A DNA stretch of 64,000 nucleotides, taken from assembly GCF_000024985.1 (NCBI RefSeq), contig NC_013523.1, forward strand, positions 1,302,001 to 1,366,000, given 5' to 3'. The position numbers and the translations under genes are program-made. This document shows positions 53,661-58,107 of this stretch, piece after piece. Position 1 is the first letter of the stretch. Each line of letters starts with the position of its first letter. The stretch comes from Sphaerobacter thermophilus DSM 20745 (GTDB taxonomy: Bacteria; Chloroflexota; Chloroflexia; Thermomicrobiales; Thermomicrobiaceae). A model generated the notes under the pieces. It was not told the origin of the DNA and did no database searches. It saw only the letters and a list, made by a program, of their open reading frames with translations.

Positions 53661-54626
53661 TCATACGCCGGGCCGCAGCGGGTCGGACTCATAGAAGGCC
53701 TGGACGAGCGCGTCCTCGGCGGCCTCGCGAACCACCGGGTCCTTGTCTCGACGCAACCGGCGCAGCACGTTCACTGCGACGCGACCGCCAATCTGCCCGA
53801 GCGCGCCGATCGCAGCGGTCTGCACCTCGCGGTCTTCGTCGCGAATCAGGTTCAGCAGTGAGTCGAGCGCCTGGGGATCTCCCAACTCGCCCGCGGCCTT
53901 GGCCGCCTCGTAGCGGAACTCCGGGTCGTCGCTCTCCAGCTCGGCCAGGATCTGCGGCAACCAGGACGCATCTAGGTTGCGCCCCATACCGAAGAGCGCA
54001 CTCACCCGCAGCTCCCGGTCCTCAGAGGCGTATGCAGCCGCAATCTCCGCAGTTACCTCAGCGTCGTCGGTAAACCACGCGAGCGACTCGAGGGCACGCC
54101 GGCGGACCCACGACGGCGCGTCTCCGTGGAGCAGATCCATGAGCGCGCTCCGAACCTGTGCCGTATGCTCGTCGTCGAGGTCGCCGAGGCTCGCGCGGCA
54201 GGCGAACTGCCCGAGGCCGGTCGCGATGGCCTCGAGCACCGCCGGCTCCCGCTCACGGGCGAGCATACCCAGCAGCTCGTCGAGGCAGTCGTTGCTCTCG
54301 TCCTCCCAGAGGCCCGCGACAGCGACGGCGCGCACTTCGGCGTCGTCGTCATCCAGCGCGACACGCAGAATGCGGCTGAAGTTGAGTTCGACGTTCTCCT
54401 CGGCCAGATCGACCATCTGCCGGACAAGGTAGCGCCGGGCATCCAGCGGGAGCTGCGGCCACTCGGCGCGCACTTGAACCGCCGCGGCCCGGCTGATGTC
54501 CGTCAGTTCGGCGACCGCACTGGCCGAGCGCTGACCGCCTCCGATCGCCCGCAGCCGCTCGATCACCCGCGCGGCACTCGGGTCATTCTGCGGGGTTCGG
54601 CTGATAGTAGAAAACATCTTCGACAT
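53661..54626 (-). CDS. HEAT-repeat protein
   Basis: A 321-aa all-helical protein with about eight HEAT/PBS-lyase-like repeats, for example DAEVRAVAVAGLWED, PAVLEAIATGLGQF, PSWVRRRALESLAWF, DRELRVSALFGMGR, DPEFRYEAAKAAGELGDPQALDSL and DREVQTAAIGALGQIGG. Such scaffolds bind proteins or DNA. The ATG at 54626 lies inside the 566-aa upstream gene (44-bp overlap), so the two are coupled. No enzymatic motif is seen. Confidence 0.85.
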   Translation of the reverse strand: MSKMFSTISRTPQNDPSAARVIERLRAIGGGQRSASAVAELTDISRAAAVQVRAEWPQLPLDARRYLVRQMVDLAEENVELNFSRILRVALDDDDAEVRAVAVAGLWEDESNDCLDELLGMLAREREPAVLEAIATGLGQFACRASLGDLDDEHTAQVRSALMDLLHGDAPSWVRRRALESLAWFTDDAEVTAEIAAAYASEDRELRVSALFGMGRNLDASWLPQILAELESDDPEFRYEAAKAAGELGDPQALDSLLNLIRDEDREVQTAAIGALGQIGGRVAVNVLRRLRRDKDPVVREAAEDALVQAFYESDPLRPGV

Positions 54627-56283
54627 CCGGATCCACGCTGAACTGGGGATTGCTCGGCGACTGCACGATGTCCCGGATCAGATCGGCCGGCATCGGGCGC
54701 TCCACGTTGGCCACCGCGACCAGATCGTCGAGCATGGCCATGTAGCGGACGGAGTCGCCACTCCCCTCGGCCTCACCGATACGCTCGAAGACCGCCGCCA
54801 GCGTCTCTTCCGGCCGCCGCCGGACCCGGTCCTCCAGCGGCGCCTGATTCGCCAGGCGCGGGAACCGGTTCTCGGTCAGGAGCATGTTGTCCTGGGTCGC
54901 GCAGTAGAAGGTCGTCGGCCGGAAGACGTAGCGCCCCTTCTTCTCGTCGAGTTGCAGCAGCTTGCGATCCTGGCCCGACACCGGCAGGTACTCGATCAGG
55001 TAGGTGCCATCGTTCTCGCTGCGCTCGATGGTGATCAGAGCGCCGGGCACCAGGTTGGCGCTGAAGAACGCCTCGAAGCCTGCCAGGTAGCCGCCACGGT
55101 TCCCCGTCGGGTAGCGGAGCTCGACGAAGAACGTTTCATACGTCTGCGGCGACTCGAAGACGAGCACTGCCGCCCGCTGGTCGGGCAGCATCGGGGGCGG
55201 GAGGAGCGCGGCGAAGTTGGCGTCGTAGGGCAGCACTCCGTAGTGATACTCGTAGAACGTGAGCACGTGCTCCACGACCGGCTCGGCCGCCTCGACCGGC
55301 TCCTTCGCGTAGTCGAGCAAGAAGCGGTAGTCAGAGCCGATCTCGCTCGGCTTCCGCTTCGTGGTGCCGATCGTGGGCAGGCCACTCGTGCTCCACAGGC
55401 GCTGCCCAGGAGTCCCGACGAACTCGAACTCACGATGCTCCCGCGACAGCCGGAAGTTCAACGCGAACCGCATCAGCTCGTAATCGGCGGCCGAGGGATT
55501 CAGACCCAACACGTCCTGGAGCAGGATCTCGTCGGTGAGCGGCTCCCCGCGCTCCAGGAGATATTCGCGGATGCGCCGCAACTCGCCGCGGCTCAGGCGG
55601 GGAACCTTGTCCTCCATCATCCACTGGTCACCGAAGTTGGCGACCGAGAGATCCTGACGCAGGTCGCGACGGATGATCTCCGCCAGCGCGGCGTCGTCCA
55701 GGGCCGCCAGTTCCTCGTCGCTGACGAGTGCCGCCGCTTCCATCGCTGGCACCGGCTCGACTTCTGCCTCCACCTCAATCTCGGCCGGCTCTTCCGGAAG
55801 CGGCTCGGCGGCCTCCTCCGTGATCTCGGGGATCACCACATCCGCAGGCTCAGTGACTAACGTGTCTCCCACGAGATCCGGCCGCCGTCGCGGCTCGAAG
55901 ACTTTCGGCTGCTCGGGCAGCGGCACCGGCTCCTGGAAGCGCTGGGCCAGCGTGTGCTCGGAGACGGGTTCCTCCTCCGTTACCGGAGCACGACCCTCCC
56001 GGGTCGTCGCGAAGACCACCCGCCCTTCCGCCTCCTCGCGCAGGAACACGTCCGGGTTCATCGACAGGACACGGTCGATCTCGACACTCCATTCCTCCGC
56101 GGAGCGCTCACCGTGTCGCGAGGCGTAGAACTCGGCGAGCGCGGAGAGTGGGCTGCGGATCGGCGCCGAGCGCGGGAACAGTCTGCCCATGGTGGACAGC
56201 GCCTGGAAGATCTCCTCAGCCATCCGCTGCTCGTCTTCAGTGCCCACGAATTGCGGCTTGGAAGCTGCCTCTGCCGTCTGCAT
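54583..56283 (-). CDS. Unrecognised 566-aa protein
   Basis: I do not recognise a family. ATG 56283 has GAGGAG about a dozen bases upstream; a TTG at 56313 would add ten residues. Visible parts: an N-terminal helical domain (about 15-105) that could be a winged helix (RSPLSALAEFYASRHGERSA ... WSVEIDRVLSMNPDVFL ... RVVFATT), a Glu/Pro-rich acidic linker (about 105-190), and a large C-terminal region with an alpha/beta character including PTIGTTKRKPSEIGSDYRFL, TFYEYHYGVLPYD and a Trp/Tyr-rich core. No membrane segment or signal. Middle gene of a three-gene set of unknown role. Confidence 0.7.
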   Translation of the reverse strand: MQTAEAASKPQFVGTEDEQRMAEEIFQALSTMGRLFPRSAPIRSPLSALAEFYASRHGERSAEEWSVEIDRVLSMNPDVFLREEAEGRVVFATTREGRAPVTEEEPVSEHTLAQRFQEPVPLPEQPKVFEPRRRPDLVGDTLVTEPADVVIPEITEEAAEPLPEEPAEIEVEAEVEPVPAMEAAALVSDEELAALDDAALAEIIRRDLRQDLSVANFGDQWMMEDKVPRLSRGELRRIREYLLERGEPLTDEILLQDVLGLNPSAADYELMRFALNFRLSREHREFEFVGTPGQRLWSTSGLPTIGTTKRKPSEIGSDYRFLLDYAKEPVEAAEPVVEHVLTFYEYHYGVLPYDANFAALLPPPMLPDQRAAVLVFESPQTYETFFVELRYPTGNRGGYLAGFEAFFSANLVPGALITIERSENDGTYLIEYLPVSGQDRKLLQLDEKKGRYVFRPTTFYCATQDNMLLTENRFPRLANQAPLEDRVRRRPEETLAAVFERIGEAEGSGDSVRYMAMLDDLVAVANVERPMPADLIRDIVQSPSNPQFSVDPDVEDVFYYQPNPAE

Positions 56284-56331
56284 CCCGGATCCACTCTCCT
56301 CGCGTCGAAACAAATGGGCGGACCGCGCTGG

Positions 56332-56454
56332 CTAGCGGCTCAACCGCTCCCGCAGCGCGCGGACGAGGTCATCGGTCGTCATCGGTTTGGCGGAGTTGCG
56401 CAGCAGGAACAACAGATAGGTGAGATGCTCCTCGCTGAGACGCACGCTCGACAT
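56332..56454 (-). CDS. Very small conserved-looking protein (40 aa)
   Basis: ATG 56454 follows GGGAGGA at an ideal seven-base spacing, with a second ATG at 56460, behind a good promoter. The 40 residues SSVRLSEEHLTYLLFLLRNS plus AKPMTTDDLVRALRERLSR form two or three helices, like the first part of a winged-helix or a small interaction domain. It ends 48 bp before the 566-aa gene and is in the same orientation. Being so short, its reality rests on start signals and composition. Confidence 0.6.
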   Translation of the reverse strand: MSSVRLSEEHLTYLLFLLRNSAKPMTTDDLVRALRERLSR

Positions 56455-56489
56455 GGCCATTCCTCCCATCACCAAGGCCACAAGTGCAA

Positions 56490-56519
56490 AGTGTACATGC
56501 GTTCTCGTGGATCAGGCAA
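56490..56519 (-). promoter_or_regulatory. Promoter of the 40-aa / 566-aa / HEAT gene set
   Basis: On the minus strand TTGCCT (56519-56514) and TACACT (56495-56490) with an 18-base spacer, about 35 bases before the ATG at 56454. It lies after the ROK gene, implying a separate transcript. Confidence 0.55.
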
Positions 56520-58032: not shown

Positions 58033-58107
58033 TCCCCGATAGCTCAACGGTAGAGCAGGCGGCTGTTAACCGCAAGGTTGAAGGTTCGAATCCTTCTCGG
58101 GGAGCCA
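58033..58107 (+). tRNA. tRNA-Asn (anticodon GTT)
   Basis: The cloverleaf is complete: acceptor arms TCCCCGA (58033-58039) and TCGGGGA (58097-58103), D arm GCTC...GAGC, anticodon loop CTGTTAA with GTT at 58065-58067, T arm with GTTCGAATC, discriminator G, and an encoded CCA (58105-58107). The first anticodon-stem pair is a G-A mismatch (58058/58074), the others pair. tRNA-Asn decodes AAC/AAU. Own promoter and terminator. Confidence 0.97.

Follow-up and report, generated by a model that had tools for sequence, protein, structure and literature searches.

The genome of Sphaerobacter thermophilus DSM 20745 (3,993,764 bases, two contigs) encodes a conserved set of three genes in which one winged helix appears to be assembled from two polypeptides, a 40-aa protein (P0001) and a 566-aa protein (P0002), with a HEAT-repeat protein (P0003) encoded next to them. 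We interpret P0001 and P0002 as a chromosomal, probably nucleic-acid-recognising two-polypeptide protein and give this reading a probability of about 0.55. The P0001/P0002 family is built from known folds and its domain anatomy is well supported by computation; recognition of DNA, a regulatory or chromosome-organising role and contact with the HEAT protein are proposed. The features, all within the window (the whole 64,000-nucleotide stretch analysed here), are as follows.

56490-56519, minus strand: promoter-like element TTGCCT-N18-TACACT, identical in L081 and near-identical in L082
56332-56454, minus strand: small ORF P0001, 40 aa, with conserved start and Shine-Dalgarno sequence
54583-56283, minus strand: ORF of the large protein P0002, 566 aa, with an AlphaFold2 (AF2) model and a homologue count
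55990-56244, minus strand: P0002 14-98, predicted N-terminal winged helix (AF2 pLDDT above 90)
55720-55929, minus strand: P0002 119-188, predicted disordered acidic Glu/Pro linker (pLDDT mostly under 60)
55606-55719, minus strand: P0002 about 189-226, predicted half winged helix, H3-S2-S3 (AF2, read-through model, HHalign)
55384-55605, minus strand: P0002 227-300, predicted complete winged helix 2 (AF2; VIA match to 5fyw_X, Z 8.4)
54976-55287, minus strand: P0002 333-436, predicted B3-fold pseudobarrel (Foldseek and VIA)
54604-54831, minus strand: P0002 485-560, predicted C-terminal winged-helix-like domain (AF2 secondary structure)
53661-54626, minus strand: HEAT-repeat protein P0003, 321 aa (Pfam HEAT_2, E 4.7e-31)

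The genes are read from the minus strand in the order P0001, P0002, P0003, the set that the sequence-only reading of this DNA had described, and all three are conserved. P0001 and P0002 are separated by 48 nt and lie in the same frame with one TAG stop between them, and the P0002 and HEAT genes overlap by 44 nt. In relatives the order ROK, small ORF, large gene, HEAT, PIG-L, FemAB, MurE recurs, with losses (the labels ROK, PIG-L, FemAB and MurE come from sequence inspection, without a family scan). Past the ROK gene is a tRNA-Asn gene (58033-58107, plus strand).

The small ORF was searched for with an HMM on both strands in three frames at 80 loci, two of which were too short (<150 nt upstream). 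It was found directly 5' of the large gene at 75 of the 78 testable loci, in every case on the coding strand and ending in its own stop codon; the 22 seeds of the HMM were picked by hand and partly come from genomes among those tested, so that the test is not fully independent. At the three loci that gave no match the ORFs seem to be truncated or wrongly started. Inspection by eye 5' of the large gene identified a related small ORF at 21 of 21 diverse loci, and BLAST with P0001 (E ≤ 0.001) recovered matches in 41 of 158 class genomes, all of one order (counted from the listing). The spacing of the small and large genes varies between a 4-nt overlap, which is frequent in Chloroflexales, and a gap of 138 nt. 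Compared with L082, the P0001 frame differs at 3 first, 1 second and 13 third codon positions, and the Shine-Dalgarno sequence of the small ORF (56462-56467) is kept in three Sphaerobacter genomes. Given the third-position bias among Sphaerobacter species and the coding-strand HMM matches, conservation of the 40-aa frame is, on these comparisons, more than chance; whether the frame was conserved had been one of the points on which the earlier proposal could have failed, and the matches at 75 of 78 loci are in its favor.

A promoter separate from that of the ROK gene had also been proposed for the set. A promoter consensus scan gave zero sites; in favor of the proposal are the element TTGCC(T/C)-N18-TACACT (56490-56519), kept in three Sphaerobacter genomes, and a comparison of 64 non-redundant loci, in which TACACTT- and TATAAT-like words are enriched 5' of the small ORF. 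A search for a conserved operator 5' of the small ORF found no clear class-wide site, only these promoter words and a hairpin at 12 loci. The hairpin, AGCRGGGAGR-loop-YCTCTCTGYT including G-U pairs, precedes the small-ORF start by 21-31 nt at 12 Chloroflexales loci (L126, L127, L129, L142, L144, L146, L147, L150, L151, L153, L154 and L158) and could be a site of RNA-level autoregulation. An Rfam scan of the region upstream of the small ORF at eight loci gave no family.

Of 121 relatives, 115 have a P0002 homologue, as do all 81 near-complete genomes (≥90% complete, ≤5% contaminated). The large protein, which the sequence-only reading had called unrecognised, matches no known family, a match to one of unrelated function having been the second point on which that proposal could have failed: Pfam and NCBIfam returned nothing for P0001 or P0002. 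PHROGs gave no convincing match either, and profile searches against solved structures (profiles A1, A4 and A5) gave chance-level matches only. Pfam models of B3 or winged-helix domains do not match these proteins. B3 families were not found at E up to 1 in P0002, in the other 20 A1 members or in 15 relatives of the fused type described below; Pfam gave no winged-helix family for the joined halves or for each half of the split domain. The halves and winged helix 2 look to us, in sequence, like HARE-HTH or RpoE-delta type winged helices, and no HARE-HTH profile match was obtained up to E 10 with the halves or joined halves. PADLOC, Pfam and NCBIfam identified no nuclease or defence family for P0001 or P0002, and HEAT for P0003. 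An EcoRII-N search included as a yardstick matched nothing, controls included, and is uninformative.

The P0002 model (AF2, 60 rows) has a mean pLDDT of 87.2, with 419 of 566 residues at ≥90. The N-terminal winged helix (residues 14-98) gave VIA matches of Z about 8 to Vps22, JetB, Lotus and Zalpha folds. The Glu/Pro linker noted earlier is present at about 119-188 with a net charge of -14 (mean of -12.9 over 60 rows). The B3-fold domain, which the sequence-only reading had overlooked, is predicted to form the seven-stranded open pseudobarrel characteristic of the B3 superfamily. Plant B3 domains occupy ranks 1-13 in Foldseek (best E for B3 DNA-binding domains 1.5e-3) and ranks 1-16 in VIA, although families absent from the VIA listing may also match. 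Residues 333-436 align with plant ARF1 (4ldx) at Z 10.8, rmsd 2.4 over 102 residues, with VAL1 and FUS3 at Z 10.7, and with the restriction enzymes LlaJI.R1 (6c5d) at Z 9.5 and BfiI (3zi5) at Z 7.6. This is also the most conserved domain, with 25 of the 64 positions at which one residue occurs in at least 90% of rows. These make up 25 of the 104 positions of the B3 region and, in an arm-like stretch (386-404), 8 of 19; in the arm-like loop R390, N395, R396, G397 and G398 are kept at 95-100%.

Relevant passages of PMC4081073, PMC4267653 and PMC6599366 describe B3 domains in plant factors and restriction enzymes, and in those of PMC4081073 and PMC4267653 the bacterial B3 folds described so far belong to restriction enzymes. 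The superfamily includes EcoRII and UbaLAI; P0002 lacks a nuclease and is not a plant factor. Its B3 domain differs from known ones in having no Pfam B3 match, in being acidic and embedded among winged helices, and in occurring in nearly every examined genome of one bacterial class. Phrase searches of mostly non-subscription literature gave no publication combining "B3 domain", "restriction" and "Chloroflexi", no bacterial non-restriction B3 protein of the P0002 kind, and no description of a split winged helix or HTH.

Immediately before winged helix 2 lies the half domain. Modelled alone, P0002 189-223 consists of helices and a hairpin only. The models support the conclusion that P0001 supplies the missing H1-S1-H2. 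When P0001 and P0002 were modelled as one read-through chain (13 paired rows among 49), P0001 residues 11-40 reached pLDDT 95-97, with a helix at 8-20, a strand at 25-26 and a helix at 27-40. DSSP assigned the large part a helix at 254-267 and strands at 271-274 and 277-280 (P0002 197-210, 214-217 and 220-223), giving across the two proteins the order H1-S1-H2-H3-S2-S3 of a winged helix. A strand bridge at P0002 185-186 (model 242-243) appears that is missing from the model of P0002 alone, and pLDDT in the half domain is about 86 with P0001 (184-193) versus about 62 alone (181-190). Read-through residues 6-357 aligned in VIA with the tandem winged helices of the SelB C-terminus (1wsu), with 117 of 122 residues matched across the composite winged helix and winged helix 2 at rmsd 5.9; the Z of 7.3 is in the range of common or chance arrangements. 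Unlike SelB, the protein has no GTPase part and takes its first winged helix from two genes. From the DSSP assignment, the raised confidence and the SelB alignment, we infer that the two halves probably pack on each other. Covariation between small and large proteins was not enriched at the half domain (of the 80 strongest pairs, 8 fell in 185-226, against an expectation of 6.5). The resemblance of the 40-aa product to the beginning of a winged helix, remarked on from the sequence alone, is thus borne out by prediction and comparison. Its proposed partnership with the large protein gains from the predicted docking and from fused relatives, but the predicted docking place is an internal half domain, not the N-terminal winged helix.

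Relatives in other classes carry both halves in a single chain. A profile search of 301 genomes of the phylum gave matches in 68, of which 31 are outside the class label; the A4 profile, built from the outside relatives, matched 75, and adding the class member that A3 alone detected gives 76 of 301 genomes with either form. The split form was found outside the class at two inspected loci (L206 and L207), which a third genome resembles. Most other outside relatives are single chains of 520-540 aa in genomes that we suppose to be Anaerolineae. These comparisons support the earlier suggestion that the set could be lineage-specific. In the fused type, HHalign placed the small protein at 13-55 (E 5.4e-7) and the half domain at 144-186 (E 2.6e-8); further along come winged helix 2 at 202-251 (E 2.6e-8), B3 at 307-403 (E 2.4e-11) and winged helix 3 at 457-520 (E 7e-4). 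Winged helix 1 had no match. A reversed-order composite used as a control also scored E 1.7e-9, via winged helix 2; E-values of joined profiles therefore prove no order, and the separate matches of the halves carry the argument.

The fused proteins (L191-L205) differ from the split form in joining the halves through an insert, in lacking winged helix 1 and in having a gene for a 145-aa protein in place of HEAT. The insert is about 85 residues long, unrelated and beta-rich-looking; the Sphaerobacter class has winged helix 1 and the acidic linker at this place, with the break between the two genes immediately ahead of them. We obtained no support for the insert being a CarD/TRCF polymerase-binding domain: HHalign gave a probability under 1 from a profile of only four sequences, the segment having been obtained from 4 of 29 loci. 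The 145-aa protein, encoded 3' of the fused gene at 14 of 15 loci (not at L200), has a winged-helix-like C-terminus and no Pfam match over the cut-off. Also identified were shortened fused-type proteins of 266-268 aa (L237 and L238), in which the tandem winged helices are present and the chain ends before B3. In split-form loci outside the main class set (L148, L206 and L207), a gene that resembles the bifunctional nuclease family DUF151 lies 3' of the large gene.

P0003 matches the HEAT_2 profile at 107 bits (cut-off 27.7), and Pfam and NCBIfam found HEAT repeats only. A HEAT gene follows the large gene on the same strand at 71 of the 78 loci with 600 nt downstream; the other seven are four Herpetosiphon loci, L148, L149 and L140. 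In L140 (6004-8832) and L184 the large and HEAT proteins are fused in one frame of 942-957 aa; the C-terminal sequences of the two are identical, and they are probably one organism, from a metagenome assembly.

In the mechanism that we favor, P0001 would fold as the half of a winged helix that comprises helix 1, strand 1 and helix 2, and this half would dock on helix 3 and the wing hairpin of P0002 (residues about 189-226). The composite domain and winged helix 2 would form a tandem that adjoins the B3-fold barrel. Both parts would be translated from one message, on which stop and start codons overlap in many relatives. The surfaces of B3 and of the winged helices may read a conserved site, either on DNA or on a component of the transcription or chromosome machinery, with the HEAT protein a possible partner of P0001/P0002. 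The B3 fold, the several winged helices and the invariant arginine-bearing loop suggest nucleic-acid recognition. The charge speaks against it: the acidic B3 domain and the net charge of -47 of P0002 are unlike a typical DNA binder. Per 100 residues the charge is -8.3 for P0002 and -7.2 for the HEAT protein, versus -1.2 to -3.5 for four neighbour genes. For this reason our commitment is just over one half, and an acidic scaffold is kept as the main rival.

That rival is a complex that does not bind DNA, with B3 and winged helices serving as protein-binding modules and acidic P0002 and HEAT forming a scaffold round a basic partner such as polymerase, ribosome or a nucleoid protein. Winged helices often bind proteins, the HEAT gene adjoins and the charges fit (P0002 -47, HEAT -23, B3 on average -6.5, sd 2.1, n = 60, in the Sphaerobacter class). 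It has to contend with the arm-like loop of the B3 barrel, which is the most conserved stretch, and with the B3 domain of the fused type, which is basic (+5.9, n = 15). As to the basic DNA-contacting arms of B3 proteins, the arm-like stretch of P0002 is conserved, but the domain around it is net acidic in the class, and basic only in fused-type relatives. The two types have no arm motif in common, which tells against the favored reading. We regard the scaffold as a real but less probable alternative.

A small ORF that acts only as a leader peptide or upstream ORF coupling translation, its product being no structural partner, is improbable. The stop/start overlap (gap -4) in many Chloroflexales and the hairpin near the start in 12 of them would suit such a role. 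They are outweighed by class-wide amino-acid conservation with third-position bias, by the matching segment inside the protein chain in other classes, and by gaps of up to 138 nt elsewhere, which imply no strict coupling. That the set is left over from, or akin to, a restriction or defence system and has kept its B3 recognition domain is very improbable: BfiI, UbaLAI and LlaJI are among the Foldseek and VIA matches, but the model has no nuclease domain, PADLOC matches neither P0001 nor P0002, and occurrence in all 81 near-complete relatives, in a gene order that recurs, is unlike mobile defence genes.

The nucleic-acid-recognising two-polypeptide protein is the reading that we retain. Its most specific form is a phylum-specific core chromosome regulator, with a winged helix that two genes encode in parts and that reassembles in trans, and with a housekeeping bacterial B3 domain outside restriction enzymes; we offer this form tentatively, as a possibility short of even odds. 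If it is correct, an entire bacterial class has a core protein that went unnoticed because half of one domain is encoded by a 40-aa gene, which is easily missed in annotation. It would also provide a natural winged helix built from two genes, for which the fused relatives serve as control, and a bacterial B3 fold outside restriction enzymes, with a bearing on the origin of the plant B3 factors.
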